From a virus, in IMG/VR virus record IMGVR_UViG_3300030114_000027, positions 1 to 35,660 of that record: a stretch of 35,660 bases of DNA, one strand, 5' to 3'. How positions within the stretch are numbered: the first letter of the stretch is position 1; each line of letters starts with the position of its first letter. This document shows, in pieces, positions 6,082 to 21,034 of the stretch. The position numbers and the translations under genes are program-made. The notes under the pieces are model-generated. The model was not told the DNA's origin and did not search any database. It saw only the letters and a list, made by a program, of their open reading frames with translations.

Positions 6082-7569
6082 CTATTTTTGTATAATAACG
6101 TTGGATGTAATGTCGTCTAAAAACATACTTCCATTAACATAAATCAAATTCTCACGCGCTCTAGTAATCCCCACATATTTAAGATTTTGCTCTTGTTCAA
6201 GTTGCCAAGGTAACGTTGCAAACTTCGACGGGATAAGCTCAGGGCAAAGAAAGAATATTGTATCATTCTCCAAACCTTTTGCTTTATGGATAGTGCTTAG
6301 CAATATGCCTTTTACCTCATCTGAAAATATGTCCTCAATCAGCGCTGTCAATTGTTTCACGTTATCAACTTCTCCGCACAAATACCCAATAACTTCTATG
6401 CGTTGCATTAACGCTTCCATCTTTGGATGCATTAAAGGGTTTCGGAACCCCCGAGATTCAAGTTTTCTATACAACTTATCTTGTTCAATATCCATCATCC
6501 TAAGCAATGCCCCGATGCTCTTAGCACCAGTTTTAGATATAAGAAGCAATATACCTTCACCGATATCTTTACCCCTCACCTTGCTCTTTATTTTGTTCTT
6601 CATCAACCAAAGATAAGTTTGTATCAACGGCTTCAAATTACGACAGAGTATCCAATCGCCATATTCTAATTCAGTAAGGCTTCCGTCACGAACCGAACCT
6701 TCTTTTGCATTCGGAGCCCAACTTATCTCTGGAACTATTTTTTGAGCTTCTTTAACCACATTTATAGCACAGCGGTATGAAACGGAAAGGGGGAGTTTGA
6801 TAGCGGCACCGTTTAAAGCCGATAGTTTACTGTAGCTTCCTGCGTCTGCCCCCGCGAAGCCGTAAATTGCTTGACGTTCATCTCCCACCGTTATCAATCT
6901 CCCCCTTCTATTTAAACAATTTTTTATAATAGCATGTTGAGCCAATGAGAAGTCTTGGCTTTCATCGCAAAATACATAATCAAATTTACGGAACCTCAAT
7001 GTTGCGTCAACGGCTGGTTGATATATCATATCCATAAAATCGAATTGGTTCTTATCCTTATTCATTAATTCAAATACTTCTATCGCTACGTTAACTTCAG
7101 TTTCGCCAACGTTCAGGTCATACTGTTCACATAATGCAGTTACAACTTCAATGTTACTTTCTACCAAGTTGCAACGCATCAAATCAACAATCTTTGGTAT
7201 TATATAAAAGTAATACCCCTTCTTGTTTTCACGTATTTCCTCAAATTTTTTAATTACCTTCTCAATCTTAGATATTGCTTTATTTGGGTTCATTTTCACT
7301 TTCCCCCCATATCTGGATAATATCATACGCCAACCGTAACTATGCAAGGTCATAATGTCAACATCTTTCCTTTCAGAACGCTCTTTTAATTCGTTTATGA
7401 TTGAATTATTGAACGCTAAAAATATCGCAGACTTATGTTCAGGAACAAACTTTAACAATTCCAGCAGCACAGTGGTTTTACCCGAACCTGCAACTGCTGA
7501 AATGTTTATGTTAGCATCAGTGTCTTGGAATGCCTTATAAATTGTTATTTGATTTTTGCTCGGTGTCAT
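6082..7569 (-). CDS. UvrD/Rep-like superfamily 1 DNA helicase (495 aa)
   Basis: ATP-dependent 3'-5' DNA helicase of the UvrD/Rep/PcrA type. The motifs are in order: Walker A AVAGSGKTT (25-33), Ia-type LAFNN, Walker B CDESQD (201-206), motif III VGDERQAIYGF (228-238), motif IV SYRC (264-267), motif V STIHKAKGLE (425-434) and motif VI YVGITRARE (465-473). At 495 residues it is compact compared with cellular UvrD (about 720), with reduced 1B/2B insertions. It lies at the end of the recombination block (RecA, SbcCD, RuvC-like). A role in fork restart, branch processing or clearing proteins from DNA is likely, comparable to accessory helicases in other large phages. The start lies one base after the upstream stop. 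Confidence 0.9.
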   Translation of the reverse strand: MTPSKNQITIYKAFQDTDANINISAVAGSGKTTVLLELLKFVPEHKSAIFLAFNNSIINELKERSERKDVDIMTLHSYGWRMILSRYGGKVKMNPNKAISKIEKVIKKFEEIRENKKGYYFYIIPKIVDLMRCNLVESNIEVVTALCEQYDLNVGETEVNVAIEVFELMNKDKNQFDFMDMIYQPAVDATLRFRKFDYVFCDESQDFSLAQHAIIKNCLNRRGRLITVGDERQAIYGFAGADAGSYSKLSALNGAAIKLPLSVSYRCAINVVKEAQKIVPEISWAPNAKEGSVRDGSLTELEYGDWILCRNLKPLIQTYLWLMKNKIKSKVRGKDIGEGILLLISKTGAKSIGALLRMMDIEQDKLYRKLESRGFRNPLMHPKMEALMQRIEVIGYLCGEVDNVKQLTALIEDIFSDEVKGILLSTIHKAKGLENDTIFFLCPELIPSKFATLPWQLEQEQNLKYVGITRARENLIYVNGSMFLDDITSNVIIQK

Positions 7570-7570
7570 A

Positions 7571-7891
7571 TTAAATTTTCGACGCGGACGACCATTTTAC
7601 CCATTTAGTATTTTTAGAGAACTGCAACCTCATAACCGCGCTATCCGTAACTATTTGGTTTAAATTTGATAAGAAGTTAGTTAGATTTGGATTAATCGAA
7701 TTTCTAACCAAAAATGAAGTAATGTCTATACCGTCAGCAACGCAATATTCAACCGATTCTACATTGTTTTGTGTTGATTCTGTAAACTTATGGCATAACA
7801 AATAAATGTATTCGTTATTGTTAAGTACTTGCGCTTGCAATACTACATAACCTTCATTTGTTAATCGATTTATCGCTTCAATATTTTTCAT
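7571..7891 (-). CDS. Hypothetical protein (106 aa)
   Basis: A small alpha/beta protein I do not recognise. Residues 1-35 read as helix-strand-strand (GYVVLQAQVLNNNEYIYLLC), and the middle is Asn/Ser-rich. The C-terminus carries a basic, Trp-containing tail. It overlaps the sigma-like gene upstream by ATGA and is followed one base later by the helicase gene. Confidence 0.65.
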   Translation of the reverse strand: MKNIEAINRLTNEGYVVLQAQVLNNNEYIYLLCHKFTESTQNNVESVEYCVADGIDITSFLVRNSINPNLTNFLSNLNQIVTDSAVMRLQFSKNTKWVKWSSASKI

Positions 7892-9343: not shown

Positions 9344-11182
9344 TTAAACTAATAACTTTGGTAACTCCGTGTAGTAACTGTTTCCGTCAACTTTTTTTAC
9401 ATACAGAGCGTTCTCATTATTGAAACCTTCAGAGACCGTCTGGGTTATCATCAAAATAGTAATTCCCATTTTTTCTAAGATTTTTATAATGTTCTCTTGA
9501 CCCATAGAATCCACCCCAGGAAATACTTCATCGAGCAATAAAAGATTTAACCCAAGACCATTGGTCGAAAGGTTAATCAAATGTTGTATTCCTAAAATAC
9601 CCGCTACTTGAACACGCCCGCGTTCACCGCCCGACTTGCCCTTAAATACTTGGGGAGTGATTCCGTCGTTTTGAACAAACACGTCTATCTTCTCCCGCAC
9701 CGAGCCGTCCTTCAATATCTTGAACCCATTGATTAGAACCGACGTGTCAACCCCGAACTTCTTTAGGAAGCTATTTGTCATCCCCTCGATTATCTTTATG
9801 CTCTTGTTTGCTAAATAAGTAAGGAACCCTGATTTGCCCATATTGTACTGCCAAAAGCTTATCATCTCCAACTCATCGCTATATCCTGCGGCTTCCTTGG
9901 ACTTTAATTTCAATTCAGCATTTATTTCGGACAGCTTTTCGTTTAGCAACTTCAACGCTTTATTGTCTTTCTTTGAAGCTTTGAGCGCGTTAATCTTTTG
10001 TTGAATCTTATAAACTTCTTTCGCTTCGTAATCAATTTCCTCAGTATTTCGCTTGTTTTTTCGCTGGATGACACGTATTTCTTCAGTTATGTCGTCGGCT
10101 GTTTCTTGACGTTCTTGAATAGCTTTTTCTTTTTTAGTTATGGCAAGAAAGTCAGCCTCAATAGCAAGCTTCAATTTTTCTGTTAGCGCAAGAAGCTCTT
10201 TAGCTTCCGGAATTGTTAACTGGTATTCCGAATTGAGTATGAAATCTTTTTTGCAATGAGGGCAAGTTATTATTTCCTCAAGCTCGTTTTTGAGTGTACG
10301 AATTATTTTTACCGTATCGCTCAATTCTTTTACTTTGTCACTGCTTTCTTTTTTGAGCTTAGTTTTTTCTTCTATGCTTACCTTTTTAGTTTCAAAATCT
10401 TTTTGCTTCGACTTAACATCTTCATCAAGACGCCCGTTTTCTTCCATGCGTAAACGCATTGATTCTTGCTTAGTTTTTTTATCGGTTTCAAGTTCCTTTA
10501 TATCTTCAGCAGTAGTGTCCTCTAATTCCAGCTCCGCTTTTTGCTCATCAATTAAATCCACCTTAGCAATAAGTTTATCCGTCTCTAAATTTACACCGTC
10601 TAGCAATGCTTTATATTCCTTGTTCCGTTTAACAAGTTCTTCAATTGCTGGGTTAATCATATCAGCTGATGTAATACGGTTCATGATTTCTTTTTTGTCT
10701 AAATCATTAGCCGTAAAAAATGAGAACTTTGAGTCTTGGTCTATTATGAAGTACCTCAACAAATCTTCTTTGGTTATCCCTAAAAGCTCAAATATTCGCT
10801 TGTTGGCTTCGTTGGTTGAAACCACCTTCTTGTTTATTTCGCCGTTTTCCCATAACGTCAACAATGTGGTTTTACCGCGTATAAATTTGCGATATATCCT
10901 CAATGTGGAGTTCAGGAATTTATTTTCCAATTCCAAGTCAACCTCACAGGTTTCAGATTCATAGTTTATGAACGCGTCTTTACCCAAGTTTCTCAAATCG
11001 TCCCCAGTCAAAGCAATGCCAATACCCTCGAACAATGTCGATTTTCCGGAGCCGTTATTTTCCATGGCTCGGTCCGTTTCATTGTGACCGAATATAACAG
11101 TGCAAACCCCATTACGAAATACATATGTACTGTCTCTGTGCGAAAATAAATTTCTTATTTCAATTTTGATAGGACTCCACAT
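9344..11182 (-). CDS. sbcC: SbcC/Rad50/gp46-like recombination ATPase (612 aa)
   Basis: ATPase subunit of an Mre11-Rad50-type nuclease that processes DNA ends for recombination. The split ABC-ATPase has its N-terminal Walker A NGSGKST (43-49). A short insertion of about 8 residues separates the usual Gly/Asn of the loop from the NGSGKS core. Coiled-coil arms (about 185-305 and 330-430) flank a zinc hook CPHC (307-310). The C-terminal lobe carries the ABC signature KSGGERGR (516-523), Walker B LLLLDE (547-552) and a following D-loop. Arms are short, as in T4 gp46 (560 aa), compared with cellular SbcC (about 1050 aa). It starts 2 bases after the SbcD stop. Confidence 0.92.
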   Translation of the reverse strand: MWSPIKIEIRNLFSHRDSTYVFRNGVCTVIFGHNETDRAMENNGSGKSTLFEGIGIALTGDDLRNLGKDAFINYESETCEVDLELENKFLNSTLRIYRKFIRGKTTLLTLWENGEINKKVVSTNEANKRIFELLGITKEDLLRYFIIDQDSKFSFFTANDLDKKEIMNRITSADMINPAIEELVKRNKEYKALLDGVNLETDKLIAKVDLIDEQKAELELEDTTAEDIKELETDKKTKQESMRLRMEENGRLDEDVKSKQKDFETKKVSIEEKTKLKKESSDKVKELSDTVKIIRTLKNELEEIITCPHCKKDFILNSEYQLTIPEAKELLALTEKLKLAIEADFLAITKKEKAIQERQETADDITEEIRVIQRKNKRNTEEIDYEAKEVYKIQQKINALKASKKDNKALKLLNEKLSEINAELKLKSKEAAGYSDELEMISFWQYNMGKSGFLTYLANKSIKIIEGMTNSFLKKFGVDTSVLINGFKILKDGSVREKIDVFVQNDGITPQVFKGKSGGERGRVQVAGILGIQHLINLSTNGLGLNLLLLDEVFPGVDSMGQENIIKILEKMGITILMITQTVSEGFNNENALYVKKVDGNSYYTELPKLLV

Positions 11183-11184
11183 GA

Positions 11185-12213
11185 TTATAAAGTTTTGATT
11201 AATTTCATGCCGTAAACTAATTGCTTACCGCTTATTGATTGTTGTTTGGAGAACGCTATGAAATCCTTCATAACGCTTTGTTTGTCATACAATAATACGC
11301 TTTCTGACTCAGACATTTCAATCGCTTCTGTTTCTTCTGTTGACTCAAATTTTATATCAATTCCAAGCTTGTGTATTTCGCTTGTATTAATATTAGCAAA
11401 ATCAACCTTACTACCTTTAAACAAAAACCTGACGTGGTCATAATTTTCTCCGTCATATTTCTCCATAAGGTTTCGGGTTGACTCTTTGTCCTTGACTTCG
11501 ATTACTTCTTTGATATACTTAGGGAACTTAGAAGGAACGAACTTAATTGAACCATCGCTATACAAGACGGTGAACCCCTTGTCAGTTATGTTTTCTCCGA
11601 AGTTATTTTGATATGCCGAACCCGTATAAATGACATTTTCAGAGAGCTTTGAAGCGTCATGGTAGTGGCCAATTAAAACCTTGTCAAACATTTTGAACAT
11701 TGATGGTTTAATCGATGACTCTACTAGTGAACCGTCGTTGTTACGAACGCCGTCAAACCCTATATGAGTTATCAAAAAGTTTGTTTCTTCAACATCTATA
11801 TTTAACGTTTCAAATTCTTCAAGCCATTTCTCTTCTCCGAAATACGGCACAAAATAAACGCATACCCCGCCTACCAATATGCCGTCGGCTCGGTCGTAAA
11901 CTTTTGTTCCGCTGCGTCGGTATAAATCTAAATAGCTTTTTCGAGAATTTGGGTCTGTTTTATCGTGGTTTCCTGGTATAATGTGCATAGTTAACCCGTC
12001 TTCTTCTACCATGTCTATAATGTCTTGAAAATCGGTAAGAGTCGATAACGGTTGACCTGAACGGTTGGTAAAGTTATCTCCCCCATCGAAGATGTGCTTT
12101 ACCCCGTATTGATGACAAACGTTAATAAGTTGCCCGATTATGTCTTTAACTAATTCACCATTATCCTTTGTCAAATGCAGGTCGGTTGCAAAAACTCCTA
12201 TCGCTTTTTTCAT
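11185..12213 (-). CDS. sbcD: SbcD/Mre11/gp47-like nuclease (342 aa)
   Basis: Calcineurin-like metallophosphoesterase, the nuclease partner of SbcC. Phosphoesterase motifs are present in order: D11-L-H13, FDGGDNF (GD at 45-46), PGNHD (80-84), LITH (H150) and GHYH (182-185). These supply the two-metal centre. The C-terminal third is the usual capping and coiled-coil-binding region. Length matches T4 gp47 (339 aa). It is placed between recA and sbcC with 2-5 base gaps. With SbcC it should resect phage DNA ends to load the recombinase. Confidence 0.92.
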   Translation of the reverse strand: MKKAIGVFATDLHLTKDNGELVKDIIGQLINVCHQYGVKHIFDGGDNFTNRSGQPLSTLTDFQDIIDMVEEDGLTMHIIPGNHDKTDPNSRKSYLDLYRRSGTKVYDRADGILVGGVCVYFVPYFGEEKWLEEFETLNIDVEETNFLITHIGFDGVRNNDGSLVESSIKPSMFKMFDKVLIGHYHDASKLSENVIYTGSAYQNNFGENITDKGFTVLYSDGSIKFVPSKFPKYIKEVIEVKDKESTRNLMEKYDGENYDHVRFLFKGSKVDFANINTSEIHKLGIDIKFESTEETEAIEMSESESVLLYDKQSVMKDFIAFSKQQSISGKQLVYGMKLIKTL

Positions 12214-12218
12214 ATCAA

Positions 12219-13337
12219 TTATTTTTTCTCAAAATCTTCTTCTATTTTAGCTTTCAACGCCAAAAGTTCTTTGTTCCTTGCTTTCCTTATTTGAGCGTGC
12301 AGTACTGGAATCATTTTGTTGTTTGTGTCGTAAAGAGCAAACAATTCGCGAACCGAAGTCCACTTCATTTTATCTCCTAAATAAGTAATTTTTTTAGCGC
12401 CTTCTTTTTTCAATATACCGTTGTCCAATGCGAACTCAATGTCTTCTTCTGAAAGAATTATACCATAACCGAGCAATATTCTTATGGCAGTTTCTTGCCT
12501 GCTGCCAAAATCATTTTTGACTACTTTCACATAAGTAACTTGAGCTACTTCTGTATCGTCAATTTTCTCGTGCTTCCCTATTGTAGTGCTTAAACGTAAT
12601 GTTGATAAAAGTTCAACCCATTCGCCGCCCGTACTTTTTTTCTTAGAATGTTGTCCAAACCCAGCGATAGTGTCGTATTGATGGTTTAACATAACAAAAT
12701 GAATTGTCCTAGTGTACATTTCACCCATCAAAAATTTAGCAAACATTTTCGCTGGTTTAGCAAACGCCCCTATCTTTTCGTGCTTCATTTCAGTTATATC
12801 GTCGCCCTTAATAAATTTCTTTGATAAAGTGTCGGTATTTTCTTCCATAGTGTCTAACTCAGATTTACTCAATGTAGCTCCTAAACTGTCCCACAGAAAG
12901 TAAAACTTTGGTTCTCCCATTTTATATTCTTTGAATAACGCATCAACATCATCCAATAATTTCTTAACCATCATAAACATTTTTTCAACATACCGTATCT
13001 TCATAACGATAATCTTGCTCGGGTTAATTCCAAGCTGAACTGCGTATTCTTTACTATCTCGGTTTTCACTTGATAATATAACAGCAACCCCAAGCTCAGG
13101 ATTTTCTTTTAAAAAATGTTTCATACCTGTCAAACCAAGTGTGGTCTTTCCAGAACGACTCGGTCCGGCAATTTCGATTATACCTGTGGGGAATCCCATT
13201 ATCCTTAGATTATAGTCCAGCTCTGAACTACCAGTGTGAGCCCAACTCTTCATCTCCTTGAAGCCATCTTTATCAGATAGCTTAATAACGTCTTCGTTAT
13301 TAAATCTTTTGATTATATCGTCTGTTATGTTAGCCAT
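12219..13337 (-). CDS. recA: RecA/UvsX-type recombinase (372 aa)
   Basis: ATP-dependent strand-exchange protein. Walker A GPSRSGKTT is at residues 58-66, a catalytic-Glu region SSENRD at about 89-94 and the Walker B strand FYFLWDS ending near 151. A Gly-containing loop-2 region (GFGQHSKKKSTGGEW) and a long C-terminal domain follow. The divergent N-terminus (no bacterial RecA polymerisation signature) and its company (SbcCD, gp32-like, UvsW-like) make it closer in role to T4 UvsX. It is preceded by a terminator-like hairpin whose U-tract ends only about 14 bases before the ATG, so its expression may depend on read-through or on an internal promoter. Confidence 0.9.
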   Translation of the reverse strand: MANITDDIIKRFNNEDVIKLSDKDGFKEMKSWAHTGSSELDYNLRIMGFPTGIIEIAGPSRSGKTTLGLTGMKHFLKENPELGVAVILSSENRDSKEYAVQLGINPSKIIVMKIRYVEKMFMMVKKLLDDVDALFKEYKMGEPKFYFLWDSLGATLSKSELDTMEENTDTLSKKFIKGDDITEMKHEKIGAFAKPAKMFAKFLMGEMYTRTIHFVMLNHQYDTIAGFGQHSKKKSTGGEWVELLSTLRLSTTIGKHEKIDDTEVAQVTYVKVVKNDFGSRQETAIRILLGYGIILSEEDIEFALDNGILKKEGAKKITYLGDKMKWTSVRELFALYDTNNKMIPVLHAQIRKARNKELLALKAKIEEDFEKK

Positions 13338-14795: not shown

Positions 14796-15314
14796 TTAAC
14801 CGATTAATTTCTTAGTTTTCTTAATAGTAATGTTATTAACTTTGCCCTGAATCATATCATCAGTAATGTCCCCCGTTTGCATACTCATAGACAATTTATC
14901 AAGCTTGCCCGATTTGTCTTTAGAGCTCCAAAATACGCTTTGGATATAGTCGCGATTCTTTTGAGTTTCGATAAAAGATTTCTTCATTGCTTGAAAACCT
15001 TTATCTAACATTATGGCTGAATTTAATTCGTCCACCGTCGCCGCCTTACCTCCTTTTTGATTGGTTATCTCAACCCTAAGACGTTCTTTCACTTTAGCTT
15101 CAAATATGTCCACGTTCAGTTTCTTTTCTGAAACTTGTGCTTCCATGTCAGCCAACAATTTACCAAACCGATTAACAATGACTGGGAACGTGATTATTTC
15201 GCCAATCAAATTTGAATAATCAATTTTCAACAAAGAATCAATATCGACTTCTTCATTAAACTCGTCGAATACCAATTTATAATCAGTACCTCCAACAGTT
15301 ATTAATTTAATCAT
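14796..15314 (-). CDS. Hypothetical protein, possible recombination mediator (172 aa)
   Basis: An N-terminal beta-rich segment (1-45) is followed by a mostly helical protein. The helix around residues 110-145 contains KGFQAMKKSFIETQKNRDYI and then the SVFWSS turn. This layout of a dense amphipathic helix with an F/YW motif and Lys/Asp-rich loops recalls phage mediator-type proteins of the UvsY group. Position next to the SSB and near recA supports the idea, but I cannot see a decisive signature, so function is tentative. It overlaps the Nmad1 gene by 8 bases. Confidence 0.6.
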   Translation of the reverse strand: MIKLITVGGTDYKLVFDEFNEEVDIDSLLKIDYSNLIGEIITFPVIVNRFGKLLADMEAQVSEKKLNVDIFEAKVKERLRVEITNQKGGKAATVDELNSAIMLDKGFQAMKKSFIETQKNRDYIQSVFWSSKDKSGKLDKLSMSMQTGDITDDMIQGKVNNITIKKTKKLIG

Positions 15315-15633
15315 CGTTGCTTGTTTTTAATATCGGTTTATCTTCCACAATATCAGATTTAAGGATATGCAACCCGATAACCGCGTATCCCATTATATCT
15401 TTAAGAGTGTCTTCCAGACTTTCAAAATTAGCGGGGATTCCCCTCATTTGTTTTTCCACCAAACTCCTGTACCTTCGAGCCTTGTCCCAAATATGTACCA
15501 TATTCCCATTAACTCCTAAATCAAACGAAGCCCCACCGTAATCTAAATTCTTTTTTACGAGAATAACCGTAACCGCCGCGAATATTTCTTCGATAGTTTC
15601 CTTTGTCATTCTTTCTTTTTCTTCCTTGCCCAT
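15307..15633 (-). CDS. Nmad1 / DUF1599 family protein (108 aa)
   Basis: Matches the small Nmad1 (nucleotide-modification-associated domain 1, formerly DUF1599) layout: a helical N-terminus, KKNLDYGGASFDLG, HIWDKARRYRSLV, and the C-terminal helix FESLEDTLKDIMGYAVIGL. Family proteins are about 90-110 residues and recur beside thymidylate-synthase-like genes in phages predicted to make modified bases; their reaction is not established. Here a 406-aa ThyA-family gene and an HD nucleotidase lie in the same operon, which agrees with that association. An alternative start at codon 9 is possible. Confidence 0.75.
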   Translation of the reverse strand: MGKEEKERMTKETIEEIFAAVTVILVKKNLDYGGASFDLGVNGNMVHIWDKARRYRSLVEKQMRGIPANFESLEDTLKDIMGYAVIGLHILKSDIVEDKPILKTSNDD

Positions 15634-15653
15634 TCTTTATAAATTTTTTATGT

Positions 15654-16292
15654 TTAAAATTCCATTATTTTTTCAAAGTTCAACATTTCAGCGGGAAATT
15701 TACTCGCCAATACTTCAATCAATTCAGCTTTAGCTTCAAATTGACTGTTGTGAACATATTCAATCCTATTTAAGAAGTCATCATTCCCCAATGCTATTTC
15801 ACGAACTACGTAAAATTCGACTGCAAGCCAGTCGCACCACTTTACAAACTTTTTTACACCACACACTGGATTTTGTATATAATCTTTCAACATTTTCGAA
15901 GCTGAAGTTATTTCCGGAAATTCAGATACATCCCCAATATGTTTTTTCTCGGTGAAATGTTTGTTTGCTAAATGCCCCGACAGCCTATCGAGTTCAGACC
16001 TTAATGCGTTGCCGTTAAAATCGTTGTACTTTGTTTCGTGCGATATATCCCTACGTAATAAACACTCATCCCAATCGTGTAAAGCTGACTGTCGAATAAC
16101 ATCTAATTTGTACTTCAATACTTCAACATTATCGGAATTACCAAATATATCTTCCAGCGCGATAGTGGCAAAAACTAAAACTTTGTAAGAATGTTGAGAA
16201 ACGCTTTCGTGCTTGATTACGTCAACTTCTTGCCATTGGATTATATTATCCAACCTCTTTAAATAATCCCCTTCGAAAATTCTTTTTAGCAT
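15654..16292 (-). CDS. YfbR-like HD-domain nucleotide phosphohydrolase (212 aa)
   Basis: An HD-fold metal-dependent phosphohydrolase, closest in pattern to bacterial YfbR (5'-deoxynucleotidase). First-shell residues read SVSQHSY (H34), LHDWDE (H72, D73, with E76), RRDISHETKY (D82 in the conserved D...KY segment) and KWCDWL (D154). Length (212) is close to YfbR (199). It probably hydrolyses dNMPs or other deoxynucleotides in the cytoplasm. It lies immediately downstream of the polymerase gene and upstream of Nmad1, so a role in reshaping the nucleotide pool is likely. The HD dATPase DatZ of aminoadenine phages is a related fold, but no PurZ is present here to suggest that chemistry. Confidence 0.8.
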   Translation of the reverse strand: MLKRIFEGDYLKRLDNIIQWQEVDVIKHESVSQHSYKVLVFATIALEDIFGNSDNVEVLKYKLDVIRQSALHDWDECLLRRDISHETKYNDFNGNALRSELDRLSGHLANKHFTEKKHIGDVSEFPEITSASKMLKDYIQNPVCGVKKFVKWCDWLAVEFYVVREIALGNDDFLNRIEYVHNSQFEAKAELIEVLASKFPAEMLNFEKIMEF

Positions 16293-16295
16293 GAT

Positions 16296-19200
16296 TTATG
16301 ATATTATATATATTTTTGTTTTGTCCCAAGAAAATACCCCTTTTTGACCTCGGTATGTATCCATCTTAACTCTACCGTTGATTACTATAACCTTGCCGTT
16401 CAGATCAGATACTTCTTCCGACATATCAGCCCATGTATCTGGCCATACCGTAACCCCTATCATAAAGTTGTTACTTTCTAAATTTATTGAAAGCATATTC
16501 CCGTTTTTAGTTTTACGCTCGTTAACCGCTATAACCTTGCCTGCTACAGCAACTTCGCTGCCCTCCTTCGCTTTATTGAACTCATCGCCCGCAATGTACA
16601 ACCCCGCTATTCTTTTGCTTGGTATGGCGTCTTTAATCATTGTTTCATAATCTACATCTCCAAACCCTGTCAAACGCTTTTGCTCGAATACCCAAAATGT
16701 ATTTTTATCGGCTTCTGGAGAATTATAGATATCAGGTAGTGGAACTCTTTTTAGATTAAAATACCAAACTAACAATATTTTCCTTTGCAACGGCATAGTA
16801 AAATCTTCAATTAAATCAAAAGCCCCCGCCAATATTAAATTAGTTATGACTCCTTTATTCACCTTACTCGGAACTCTACTGACAAATTCTTCCAAATCAA
16901 AGAATTTTCCCCCCTTGTTTCGTGTCTCCATTATGTTAGTAACAGCAACTTCCCCCACGCCTTTTATTTTTGTCAAACTAAAAAATATTCGTCTGTTTTT
17001 ATGGTCACAAGTAAAGTTTTGATCCGAGAAGTTCACATCTGGCGGTCGTATTTCAATTTCTTCGCCAATCTTTTTTATTTCCGCTAATCTGAAAGGTATA
17101 TCGACCTCACTTGCGTGTTGCAAAGAAGTTGTCCAAAATTCCAGCGGATAGTTTACTTTGAACCATTGACTCCAATATGACATTATTGAATAAGCGGCAG
17201 CGTGACTTCTATTGAAACCGTATCCAGAGAACTTGTCTAACTTTTCCCAAATTTCCCCTGCCTCAACTTCAGGGCACCCGCGAGATATAGCTCCGGCAAT
17301 AAACTTTTCAGACATAGCAGCCATGGCTTTCTTGTCTTTCTTTTTCATTATGGTTCTCAATATATCGGCTTCGACTAATGACAATCCGCCTAAAACGTGA
17401 ACCGCCTTCATAATTTGTTCTTGATAAATATATAACCCAGAAGTCCCTTCTGTTACCTCTTTTAATCCAAAATCGTAATGAGGTTTCTTTTTACCGTTTT
17501 TTATATCGGAATAATCTTGATGAGCGTTACTTTCCATTGGACCAGGACGAAATACAGCTGTCATTGCTATTAAATGCTCCAAGTTATCTGGTTTTACGCT
17601 CCGGCAATAACTCATCAGTCCTGTGGTACCGAATTGAAATACGTCCTCGTTCCATCCTCGCTTAAACATCTTAAAAACATTTTCATCGTCAAAAGGTATT
17701 TCGTTGGTATCAACCGTAATATTATAATTCGCTTTTATGAGCTTAATTATTTTTTGAAATTTGTCTAGTTGCGTTAACCCCAATATATCTTCTTTCAAAA
17801 ATCCGGACTTGTCCATGTACTTACCTTCCCATTCAGATACTAATAATCCGTCAATCATCTTAACGGGAAGCCACTCAAATAAGTCTATATCTCTTCCATC
17901 CGAAGCTTGCTTCGGTACAATTACAACAGCCGACGGGTGAACGGACGAAGCTCGGCACTGAAATACGGCGAACTTAATCATGTGGACCAGTTCTGGATAT
18001 GTCTGGACGAACTTAAACAATCGCTTTGATTTAGAAGCATATTCTATTAGGTCTCCCCAAGATTCTTGTTGCCAATCATCAATATCTTTAGTAAGCATAT
18101 TCATGTCGTCGAAATTTAGACCCTTTATTTTGCCAAAATCTTTTATGCAAGTCTTTAGTTTCATCCTTGTGTACGTTCCAATAACACAAGTATATGAATG
18201 ACCATATTTTTCTTTTATGTAATTTTTTACGCTATCTCTATATTCTGTAGGAAAATCCACATCAATATCGGGCATACTGTCAGCGCTTTTAGCGCGCTCG
18301 CCCGACACACGAGTTTCATTCAAGAAACGTTCAAACAATAAATCATATTTAATAGGGTCTACGTCGGTAATTCTCAGTAAAAAAGCAACCAAAGAACCGC
18401 ACACTGAACCACGTCCCGAGCCAACCATTATGTCGTTTTCACGGCACCAATGACAAATGTCCCAGTGAATCATAAAATAGTCGCAAAGACCGTTTGGTAC
18501 TATTACATTACATTCTGTCGCTAAGCGCTCCATATACAATTTCATTTCATCTTTGCTTAAATGCGATAGCCGAGTTTCGATGCCAACTTGCAACTGCTCA
18601 AAGAAAGAAGATTTAACATCAGATACTTCAAATAACGGCAATTTTCGTTCGCTTGTATTAATCTTCATTTCCACTGACTCGGACAATGAAACAGAGTTTT
18701 CTACGCCAGATACTATTACTTCTACTAAATCGTCAACATCTTCCAACCATTCCGAGTAAGACTCAACCGTATCTTGAAAACTTTTGTAAAATTGAGATTC
18801 GCTTTCTGCGTCGGCTCTGCCGTCTATTTTGTTCAGAGCTGACTTTAAACCGCCATTTTCTTTATCTAAATAGTAACTATCGTTTATCAATATGGGGTCT
18901 AAATATTTTCTGTATTTACAAATATACGTGTCTATATTGGACAAATGTTTTTTAAATAATGTAGAAGACGAATATTCAACCGTATCTATTTGGTAAAATA
19001 AAGAATCAAAAGACTTCTTATAAATGTTTATTAGATTGAAACAATGTTTCTTATCGTCTTTAAAGTAGTTGAATTCACTTTCTTTAGGTATTACCAAACA
19101 TAACCCGTCCCCGTATGTATAAAGTAACGTATCAGGAATAAAACCGTTGTAGTCGACGTTTATAGCCTTATTAATCAAAAGTAAATTTTTCCAGCCAGCG

Positions 19201-19814
19201 TAATTTAACACAAACAATTTTAATTCAAAAGTTTCTTGTATGTCCGCTTCAATATCGTATCCTATAGACACTGTGACGGTTTCTCCAAGAATACATTTTA
19301 TTTTGTTCTTTTCACACGCAGTTTGAAATGACAACGCTCCCGCTAATGTATTTTTATCGCATATGCCTAAAAATTTATGTCCTAAGAATTTTGCTTTATC
19401 AGCCCAAAGTTGACACCCCCCGCTCCCGTTTAATATTTCATATTCCGAATGAACCCCCAAATGTGAGAACTCCATGACTGTCGGTTCAGAAGTTAACCCA
19501 CGAAACTTAAAATCATTAAAGCTCGGTTTGAAAATTAATTCATTGTATTTGTTTTTACCTCTTGCTAAATTAGAATAATAAAACCTTCCTCCGAACTCAA
19601 AAAGTATGTTGTCTACTTCTTTATCATCTAATAAGTCATACTCTTCATCCGACAGAATAAAGCTGAAATCATCATCTATTATTTTCCCATCAAAAGATTT
19701 AAGGTAAAGATATTTACTCTCCCCCTCAATAGTAATAATGTCGGAACCATTATTATCTGATTCCGACACTACTAGTTTGTTTTCTTTAACCCAATTTAAT
19801 AAACTTTCAGTCAT
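16296..19814 (-). CDS. dnaE: DNA polymerase III alpha subunit, C-family replicase (1172 aa)
   Basis: The phage's own replicative DNA polymerase, of the bacterial DnaE type. A PHP domain begins at about residue 117 (SHLGVHSEYEILNG), preceded by roughly 110 extra residues that DnaE normally lacks. The PHP motif usually written TDHGN reads CDKNT (152-156), so a metal ligand His is missing and proofreading by PHP is doubtful. The palm contains VGSGRGSVCGSL (464-475) and the catalytic PDIDVDF (515-521, D518 and D520). Then come CRASSVHPSAVVI, fingers and beta-binding regions (VFRPGPMESN, FNRSHAAAYS), and a C-terminal OB fold around residues 1085-1170. Total length is similar to E. coli DnaE (1160). 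The start overlaps the thymidylate-synthase stop by one base. Confidence 0.95.
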   Translation of the reverse strand: MTESLLNWVKENKLVVSESDNNGSDIITIEGESKYLYLKSFDGKIIDDDFSFILSDEEYDLLDDKEVDNILFEFGGRFYYSNLARGKNKYNELIFKPSFNDFKFRGLTSEPTVMEFSHLGVHSEYEILNGSGGCQLWADKAKFLGHKFLGICDKNTLAGALSFQTACEKNKIKCILGETVTVSIGYDIEADIQETFELKLFVLNYAGWKNLLLINKAINVDYNGFIPDTLLYTYGDGLCLVIPKESEFNYFKDDKKHCFNLINIYKKSFDSLFYQIDTVEYSSSTLFKKHLSNIDTYICKYRKYLDPILINDSYYLDKENGGLKSALNKIDGRADAESESQFYKSFQDTVESYSEWLEDVDDLVEVIVSGVENSVSLSESVEMKINTSERKLPLFEVSDVKSSFFEQLQVGIETRLSHLSKDEMKLYMERLATECNVIVPNGLCDYFMIHWDICHWCRENDIMVGSGRGSVCGSLVAFLLRITDVDPIKYDLLFERFLNETRVSGERAKSADSMPDIDVDFPTEYRDSVKNYIKEKYGHSYTCVIGTYTRMKLKTCIKDFGKIKGLNFDDMNMLTKDIDDWQQESWGDLIEYASKSKRLFKFVQTYPELVHMIKFAVFQCRASSVHPSAVVIVPKQASDGRDIDLFEWLPVKMIDGLLVSEWEGKYMDKSGFLKEDILGLTQLDKFQKIIKLIKANYNITVDTNEIPFDDENVFKMFKRGWNEDVFQFGTTGLMSYCRSVKPDNLEHLIAMTAVFRPGPMESNAHQDYSDIKNGKKKPHYDFGLKEVTEGTSGLYIYQEQIMKAVHVLGGLSLVEADILRTIMKKKDKKAMAAMSEKFIAGAISRGCPEVEAGEIWEKLDKFSGYGFNRSHAAAYSIMSYWSQWFKVNYPLEFWTTSLQHASEVDIPFRLAEIKKIGEEIEIRPPDVNFSDQNFTCDHKNRRIFFSLTKIKGVGEVAVTNIMETRNKGGKFFDLEEFVSRVPSKVNKGVITNLILAGAFDLIEDFTMPLQRKILLVWYFNLKRVPLPDIYNSPEADKNTFWVFEQKRLTGFGDVDYETMIKDAIPSKRIAGLYIAGDEFNKAKEGSEVAVAGKVIAVNERKTKNGNMLSINLESNNFMIGVTVWPDTWADMSEEVSDLNGKVIVINGRVKMDTYRGQKGVFSWDKTKIYIIS

Positions 19815-21034
19815 TATAATTTACCTAAGTATTCGTGTGTGTAATTAGTTAACCTTGATGCAAAAAAGTTCTTAGCAAGCACTACAATGTCTAGAGTATC
19901 TGAATTTCCCCCCGCTATGTAACTGAAAGACTCGATTTGTTTTATCGCCCTTATCCTTAATGAATCTTTGTCAACCATACCGTCAGACATATTACTTTTG
20001 TATTGCAAATAAATTGCGCAAAGATTATACGCTAAATACAAATACTTAGAAAATTTCAATACTGATTGTAGCTCGGTTAATGAAGCAGTTTCGCCCGCTG
20101 CTAATTTAGTTAGATTATCTATAATCAAATTCAAATGTATGTCCACTTCCCTGAGTCGATTTCCAGGAACTTCGTGCTCAAAGTTGAAATCCATTTTTTG
20201 CGAATGAGACACTTCGTACAATTCAGGATGGGTAGATTCCTTAGCATGGTCTTCTTCAAATAACCTATCTTCAAAAGCATCTTTCATTTTTTCAGCCGTA
20301 TCGTTCCATTCATAGATATGCAAACTTTGCGAATTATGAGTTTGAGTACCTAATTCAACGCCTATGCAATTTGCGAATAACTCGGTCAAAAAGCTGAATT
20401 GAAAAATGTTCGTTGGCAACCCCCAATGCAAATCATTGCTTCGATTTTGTATCGTTGTTATCAACTTGCCTTTTCTTACTTTCAACATCACCGTATCATT
20501 ACAAGGAGTATCTTTTGTTTTTGCCCCTAAATCAAAATCTGGGTTCCAAATCTGTAATACAACTTGTCGACTATCTGAATTTTCATTCAATATCTTTACC
20601 GCATCGGCAATTTGGTCATGCCCTTGGGCCACATTCATATTTTCTTCCAAAAATGTATCTTCGGCTCTTACTCCCCAATGTCTTAATCTAAAACCGTATG
20701 GCGCATGAAATGTTTTGCCGTCGTCTGAAAAATCCGACATCTTTTTATTGAATAACGCTAAGAAGTGTACATCCTTCTTACCATTAAATATCCACATTGC
20801 TTCGGCAAGTAAAAAGAAAATGTTTATATCTCTACCGAATCCACCCACGCAGCGATTATACGGGTTTGTAAGCATCGTTTTGAAATCAAGAAGCTCTTTT
20901 GTTTTGCCAACTCGACTGTCTTGAATATCCAAATTATCTAACATCCATTTATTCAGTATCGGGTACACCGCTGAAAATTTAGTAGTTTTTGCTACCCCTA
21001 ACTCGGGACTTAATACATTATCAATGTCTTTCAT
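19814..21034 (-). CDS. Thymidylate synthase-family protein, extended (406 aa)
   Basis: A pyrimidine C5-methylating or hydroxymethylating enzyme of the ThyA superfamily. It has the catalytic Cys in DTPCND (C178), the phosphate-binding NRSND (197-201) and PTNIF, whose Asn (N209) aligns with the ThyA dUMP-reading Asn rather than the Asp of dCMP hydroxymethylases. The HNSQSLHIY motif (about 233-241) contacts the sugar. At 406 residues it is about 140 longer than typical ThyA, with a long C-terminal helical extension. It may make dTMP or a modified dUMP derivative. Start: an in-frame TTG precedes, but I choose ATG 21034 (TAAT-ATG context). A terminator ends the preceding transcript about 50 bases upstream, so a promoter probably lies at 21035-21085. 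Confidence 0.8.
   Translation of the reverse strand: MKDIDNVLSPELGVAKTTKFSAVYPILNKWMLDNLDIQDSRVGKTKELLDFKTMLTNPYNRCVGGFGRDINIFFLLAEAMWIFNGKKDVHFLALFNKKMSDFSDDGKTFHAPYGFRLRHWGVRAEDTFLEENMNVAQGHDQIADAVKILNENSDSRQVVLQIWNPDFDLGAKTKDTPCNDTVMLKVRKGKLITTIQNRSNDLHWGLPTNIFQFSFLTELFANCIGVELGTQTHNSQSLHIYEWNDTAEKMKDAFEDRLFEEDHAKESTHPELYEVSHSQKMDFNFEHEVPGNRLREVDIHLNLIIDNLTKLAAGETASLTELQSVLKFSKYLYLAYNLCAIYLQYKSNMSDGMVDKDSLRIRAIKQIESFSYIAGGNSDTLDIVVLAKNFFASRLTNYTHEYLGKL

Follow-up and report, generated by a model that had tools for sequence, protein, structure and literature searches.

A candidate operon for 5-hydroxymethyldeoxyuridine precursors in a viral contig, and DUF1599 (Nmad1) proteins as possible 5-hydroxymethyl-dUMP kinases

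In this work we analysed the 35,660-nucleotide IMG/VR virus record IMGVR_UViG_3300030114_000027 (the window), a single linear contig in which all the genes discussed as a cluster here lie on the minus strand. The first of them (19814–21034) encodes a protein of 406 amino acids (AA) of the thymidylate synthase (TS) family (PF00303, E=2.4e-26; PHROG 5131, E=7.6e-70), which resembles dUMP hydroxymethylases (HMases). It is followed by a gene for a DnaE-type DNA polymerase III alpha subunit of 1172 AA, likely the replicase (16296–19814; PF07733, PF17657, PF02811), by a gene for a YfbR/DatZ-like HD phosphohydrolase of 212 AA (15654–16292; PF12917, E=1.2e-7, above the curated cut-off), and by a gene for a DUF1599, or Nmad1, protein of 108 AA (15307–15633; PF07659, 27.2 bits for a cut-off of 25, E=5.1e-6; PHROG 1485, E=1.5e-14), which is a candidate kinase for 5-hydroxymethyl-dUMP (5hm-dUMP). 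A conserved neighbour of unknown function, 172 AA long, comes next (14796–15314; PHROG 20212). The HMase and dnaE genes overlap by 1 nucleotide, dnaE and the HD gene are 3 nucleotides apart, the HD and DUF1599 genes 20, and the DUF1599 gene overlaps the next one by 8. As these co-directional genes overlap or are separated by at most 20 nucleotides, it is very likely that they form one operon. The positions of the genes, the 406-AA length of the TS-family protein and the single operon all agree with the initial annotation of this DNA.

The TS-family enzyme was compared with 80 loci gathered by a hydroxymethylase profile (81 HMase-like open reading frames, ORFs) and with 80 gathered by an ordinary TS profile; position 147 (E. 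coli numbering) was absent from the patterns that gathered either set. Its closest phage matches are the gp29-type enzymes of SPO1 and SP8, with 41–43% identity over a core of 206 AA, and the next ones are those of Rhodoferax phage P26218, PaMx11 and the Maribacter Molly phages. SPO1 gp29, a protein of 383 AA, is annotated as a dUMP hydroxymethylase. The initial annotation had singled out about 140 extra residues in the window enzyme. The enzyme is indeed 406 AA long, but this does not distinguish it, the median length being 350 AA in the 81 HMase-like ORFs versus 288 in the 80 phage TS; a long C-terminus is typical of the HMase family, and length was therefore rejected as a sign of novelty. 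The informative differences are in the active site. In a residue alignment the catalytic Cys178 (E. coli Cys146) is followed by Asn179, where TS has His147 (20498–20503). Position 147 is Asn in 79 of the 81 HMase-like sequences and His in all 80 TS, and the Cys-Asn pair is common to the window enzyme and those of SPO1, SP8, M6, ViI and PhiW-14. Trp80, present in 79 of the 80 TS, is lost in the window enzyme and does not figure among the most frequent residues in the HMase set. At the positions that mark a canonical ThyA, the window enzyme thus has Cys-Asn instead of Cys-His at 146–147, and no Trp80. In a tree obtained by a quick search, where T4 gp42 sits on a very long branch, the window enzyme groups with those of SPO1, M6, ViI and PhiW-14, and a branch supported at 98% (SH-like approximate likelihood ratio test, SH-aLRT) sets the TS sequences apart from the rest. 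The active-site changes and the position in the tree, both shared with enzymes of phages whose DNA has 5-hydroxymethyldeoxyuridine (5hmdU) or derivatives of it, lead us to propose with high confidence that the 406-AA protein is a phage dUMP hydroxymethylase and not a TS.

The distribution of dihydrofolate reductase (DHFR) points in the same direction. The TS reaction uses up tetrahydrofolate and needs DHFR, while HMase does not oxidise folate (PMC4528723), so that no DHFR is expected in HMase records. DHFR was found in 15 of 25 TS records, in none of 25 HMase records and in none of seven annotated reference phages with HMase-type genes; it was not found in the window, which is part of an incomplete genome, or in its relatives. 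It must be said against our interpretation that the average HMase contig is shorter than the average TS contig, which weakens this comparison and makes it supporting evidence only. The enzyme could alternatively be an ordinary, diverged phage TS, with the HD and DUF1599 proteins serving the nucleotide pool in general and no modified base being made. It is a PF00303 member that keeps the equivalents of Cys146, Arg166, Asp169, Asn177, His207 and Tyr209, and DUF1599 also occurs near ThyX in crAss-like phages, but the replacement of His147 by Asn, the loss of Trp80, the grouping with enzymes of 5hmdU phages, the absence of DHFR from the HMase records and the zero counts, among 38 TS clusters, of HD, DUF1599-like and DUF3310 neighbours make this explanation improbable.

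The residue that reads uracil, Asn177 in E. coli, is Asn209 in the window enzyme (20408–20410), as the initial annotation had noticed, and it is Asn in SPO1 and SP8 and in every HMase-like sequence that covers the position (79 of 81). This residue bears on the idea that the enzyme acts on cytosine nucleotides, making 5-hydroxymethylcytosine as in T4 or as MilA does. The CMP 5-hydroxymethylase MilA is the second-best match in the PDB; however, MilA has Asp at this position in the CMP hydroxymethylase alignment, T4 gp42 is on its own very long branch, and the phmmer comparison with gp42 gives only 5.7e-4, so that action on cytosine is the least probable of the readings considered here.

The HD gene is strongly linked to the HMase gene. 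When genes on the same strand, downstream of and within 5 kb of HMase or TS were counted in dereplicated viral contigs, a YfbR/DatZ-like HD gene was present in 42 of 63 HMase clusters and in 0 of 38 TS clusters (Fisher p=8e-13). Such a gene directly follows the HMase gene in PaMx11, P26218 and M6; in the hypermodification clusters of these Pseudomonas (M6, PaMx11) and Rhodoferax (P26218) phages, as in the window, the HMase gene is followed by the YfbR-like HD gene and then by a small gene of nucleotide-kinase type. SPO1, ViI and PhiW-14, unlike the window, have no YfbR-like HD gene. Judging from gene linkage, the HD gene belongs to the HMase pathway. The protein gave no match by tblastn against phage records or by phmmer against the PDB, and profiles were needed to place it. 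Like DatZ of cyanophage S-2L, it has the HD fold and the metal ligands: H34, H72, D73, E76, D82 and D154 are invariant in 59 of 59 HD relatives, and the two lysines by which DatZ binds triphosphate are mostly retained (55/59 and 48/59). Against this parallel, Arg19, which stabilises the reaction intermediate in DatZ, is Gln19 in the window clade (13 of 59 relatives; Arg in the other 46). The base-contacting residues of DatZ, I22 and P79, are not kept in the window protein, where they are Glu22 and Glu86 (residue roles in DatZ are from PMC8065100). DatZ is specific for dATP, and the proposed parallel lies in the removal of the normal precursor. Because of this precedent, and because a dTTPase activity appears on infection by PhiW-14 (PMC5977210), we somewhat favour the idea that the HD protein hydrolyses a thymine nucleotide, dTMP or dTTP. 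A DatZ-type dATP triphosphohydrolase in a phage whose modified base is 2-aminoadenine is a very improbable alternative. The protein does match the dATP triphosphohydrolase profile PHROG 7076 (E=3.3e-10) and has the catalytic residues of DatZ (PMC8065100), but the HD gene tracks HMase (42/63 versus 0/38), both base contacts are Glu, and general Pfam scans of the window and of ten flank proteins, in which no search specific to PurZ was included, revealed no adenylosuccinate-synthetase-like PurZ. The Z-genome reading of the HD gene is therefore not favoured.

The position after the HD gene, which we call slot X, is occupied by DUF1599 in the window; in relatives it usually holds a DUF3310 protein, and in other lineages a DUF1599-like protein. 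Wherever the contigs of window-clade relatives extend that far, the 172-AA neighbour comes after the slot-X gene. DUF1599-like proteins were searched with a single-pass and a trimmed profile, one of them built from six such proteins, as an iterated slot-X hidden Markov model (HMM) drifted into HMase because some ORFs are fusions. Besides a Molly_5 protein that Pfam assigns to DUF1599, the six-protein profile matches the C-terminal part of SPO1 gp30 and the C-terminal ends of long HMase ORFs. By inspection, HMase–DUF1599 fusions are present at six loci in four clusters (L080/L085/L100, L089, L128 and L143). PHROG 1485, an independent profile, gives matches to the L089 fusion (3.8e-4) and SPO1 gp30 (8e-4) as well. 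SPO1 gp30 (L022, 7713–8468) is annotated as a DNA-replication protein, and our literature search found nothing on the biochemistry of gene 30. In SPO1 and SP8, as in the window, a DUF1599-like domain is encoded a few genes downstream of HMase, but gp30 is longer than the window protein and the polymerase gene of SPO1 does not lie between HMase and its partners.

The distribution of these proteins is complementary. DUF1599-like genes were found in 20 of the 63 HMase clusters (four of them fused to HMase) and DUF3310 genes in 34, the two never occurring together within 10 kb (0/63; Fisher p=7e-10), and neither was a neighbour of TS in the 38 control clusters. On the HMase tree at least nine changes between the DUF1599 and DUF3310 states are needed, of which 4 to 5 are forced by well-supported branches. 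T7 gp1.7 bears the DUF3310 domain (PF11753, E=4.5e-23) and is a nucleotide kinase that phosphorylates dTMP and dGMP (PMC7693777; PMC9339283); DUF1599 would be its functional equivalent by exchange in the same slot. A third type of protein is found next to HMase in ViI (E=3e-48) and PhiW-14 (3e-29), where the adjoining gene, directly downstream as in CBA120, encodes a P-loop dNMP kinase (PHROG 139), and the authors of the CBA120 study had already tied the adjacent dNMP kinase to 5hm-dUMP (PMC3184105). Strong PHROG 139 matches were limited to ViI and PhiW-14 among 33 records, and at L082, which has neither DUF1599 nor DUF3310, the gene next to HMase is thymidylate-kinase-like (9e-14). Since DUF1599 swaps with kinase-type proteins and never accompanies them, the simplest reading of this exchange of parts is that slot X supplies the step from 5hm-dUMP to 5hm-dUDP. 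A possible alternative nucleotide kinase, a P-loop protein of polynucleotide-kinase type (PHROG 505, PF13671), is encoded away from HMase in the left extension of the genome (L028, 8857–9360).

Several observations weigh against a kinase function of DUF1599. Its predicted model, three helices with a pLDDT (predicted local distance difference test) of 77, had no significant match among solved structures in a fold search of the PDB; Foldseek gave matches to annotated Nmad1 models, and significant likeness is limited to other viral Nmad1-type proteins. DUF1599 and DUF3310 profiles share no detectable homology (hhalign, 0.1%), and a fold search of the PDB with DUF3310 gave no significant match. 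Some phages have DUF1599 but no HMase in the region seen, among them crAss-like phages with DUF1599 near ThyX, an occurrence that would fit a more general kinase of dTMP type; for this reason DUF1599 alone was rejected as a marker of modified-base phages. L101 and L125 have neither DUF1599 nor DUF3310 as a neighbour despite long flanks, although most clusters in this situation run into a contig end, and contig ends hide some neighbours. Finally, the cluster counts ignore some shared ancestry, which makes the clusters less than fully independent, and the training of the HMMs drew on the HMase set; the TS control had no part in it and stayed at zero.

DUF1599 could instead be an all-alpha pyrophosphohydrolase of MazG type that converts dUTP or dTTP to monophosphates and so feeds or protects the pathway, and not a kinase. 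The predicted three-helix fold, the weak PDB matches to the MazG-like YpjD (E=0.57) and to RS21-C6 (E=3.3), and a Gordonia phage in which DUF1599 lies near a gene annotated as nucleotide pyrophosphohydrolase would agree with this. However, the invariant residues of DUF1599 (Tyr32, Gly40, Lys51, Arg54, Asp75, Asp79 and Tyr83) do not include the EExxE-type acidic motif of MazG, and the exchange with kinase-type proteins, with no co-occurrence, also speaks against it. We consider the MazG-type function unlikely. That DUF1599 is the 5hm-dUMP kinase itself remains a tentative proposal, a little short of an even chance. Slightly more tentative is its full form, in which DUF1599 would be a 5hm-dUMP kinase with no P-loop (probably acting on dTMP in phages with ThyX) and one of three interchangeable kinase types, with DUF3310 and the P-loop dNMP kinases, that complete the HMase pathway and are sometimes fused to HMase. 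The initial annotation had stated that Nmad1 is named for its association with TS-like genes in phages with modified bases; the association with TS-like genes, here HMases, is found in our data, and the origin of the name could not be confirmed in any paper.

Taken together, the family identities, residues, linkage, fusions and complementary distribution, which are read in the sequences, suggest the following pathway, in which the activity of each enzyme and the modified base itself are predictions. HMase would attach the methylene group of CH2-tetrahydrofolate to C5 of dUMP via Cys178, and water instead of hydride would complete the reaction, giving 5hm-dUMP and tetrahydrofolate. The DUF1599 protein would phosphorylate 5hm-dUMP, or assist its phosphorylation, and a nucleoside-diphosphate kinase, assumed to be that of the host, would yield 5hm-dUTP. 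The HD phosphohydrolase would clear competing dTMP or dTTP, in parallel with the clearing of dATP by DatZ in the 2-aminoadenine phage S-2L, and the phage DnaE polymerase would build 5hm-dUTP into DNA. As a whole, this model of the operon as a 5hmdU precursor cassette is likely. The proposal of a modified uracil or thymine, made in the initial annotation, is supported by the HMase residues, the tree and the linkage to HD and DUF1599 genes that is absent at TS loci, and can be narrowed to 5-hydroxymethyluracil (5hmU).

In SP8 DNA every T is replaced by 5hmdU (PMC7653180), and a 5hmdU intermediate common to M6, ViI and PhiW-14 has been proposed (PMC6449724); the presence of 5hmdU or its use as an intermediate in these phages is also described in PMC5977210 and PMC3184105. 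By comparison with these systems, 5hmdU very probably replaces thymine in the DNA of the window phage, as in Bacillus phage SPO1. It could also be only an intermediate, decorated with an amino acid, an amine or a sugar by genes that lie beyond the available sequence. M6, P26218, PaMx11 and ViI have genes for a 5-hmdU DNA kinase and/or an amino acid:DNA transferase, which the M6, PaMx11 and P26218 clusters have besides their HMase and HD genes and the DUF3310 gene in slot X; the window genome is incomplete, and Maribacter phage Molly_5 pairs its HMase-like gene with sugar genes. No match to the 5-hmdU DNA kinase (PF18748) or to the amino acid:DNA transferase (PF18724) was found in the window, in the overlapping contigs (about 62 kb in total) or in relatives of up to 90 kb, the window genome being incomplete, and SPO1, with plain 5hmdU, has neither gene; no 5-hmdU DNA kinase gene was found in SP8 either. 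Decoration thus appears rather unlikely, and plain 5hmdU is the default expectation.

Molly_5 (MT732455; L023, 6210–10969, and L050, L059) deserves a separate mention. Its HMase-like gene encodes Cys-Thr at the catalytic position, with Asn177 retained, and adjoins genes for a UDP-glucose dehydrogenase, an epimerase and a beta-glucosyltransferase; DUF1599 and a YfbR-like HD gene are present elsewhere in the genome. From this gene content Molly_5 is a candidate for a phage with glycosylated 5hmU, which is unreported in any phage according to PMC6449724.

The genome around the operon was extended with contigs of other samples that encode identical HMase and polymerase proteins and add about 12.6 kb and 13.4 kb, for a total of about 62 kb; direct nucleotide comparison of the window with phage records gave no match. 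The nearest annotated relatives of the DnaE polymerase are in Bacteroidota phages (Chryseobacterium phage MA9V-3 and Cellulophaga phage phiST), and the host is therefore probably a member of the Bacteroidota. These two relatives (L035, 22172–25158; L036, 9204–11319) have no HMase match and carry 7-deazaguanine genes, QueE and GTP cyclohydrolase I, with QueD in phiST, so that phages related to the window by DnaE may use different modified bases. The dnaE copy of the window is uninterrupted. In relatives, dnaE is split by ORFs that by eye resemble GIY-YIG homing endonucleases (L033, 14878–15447; L078, 10832–11593; L073, 7489–8301), which suggests introns or insertions. The left extension (L028) encodes an HU-type DNA-binding protein (316–597); SPO1 TF1, annotated as a transcription factor, is cited in PMC6449724 for site-specific binding to hmU DNA. 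It also encodes a protein of 422 AA whose N-terminal part contains sigma-70 regions 2 and 4 (6369–7637), possibly a phage sigma factor. In the window itself, an SbcC/Rad50-type ATPase and metallophosphatase pair, comparable to T4 gp46/gp47 (9344–12213), is followed by a RecA-like recombinase (12219–13337).

Replacement of thymine helps phages to resist restriction, and it easily escapes notice in sequences, since the usual annotation of a dUMP hydroxymethylase is thymidylate synthase. Our comparisons provide a sequence rule for such phages, namely Cys-Asn in place of Cys-His, no Trp80, no DHFR, and HD and kinase-type neighbours. A possible function also emerges for DUF1599/Nmad1, a domain so far without an assigned one, and part of SPO1 gp30 would then be accounted for. 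If it is indeed a kinase, DUF1599 would be a second unusual type of nucleotide kinase, beside T7 gp1.7.

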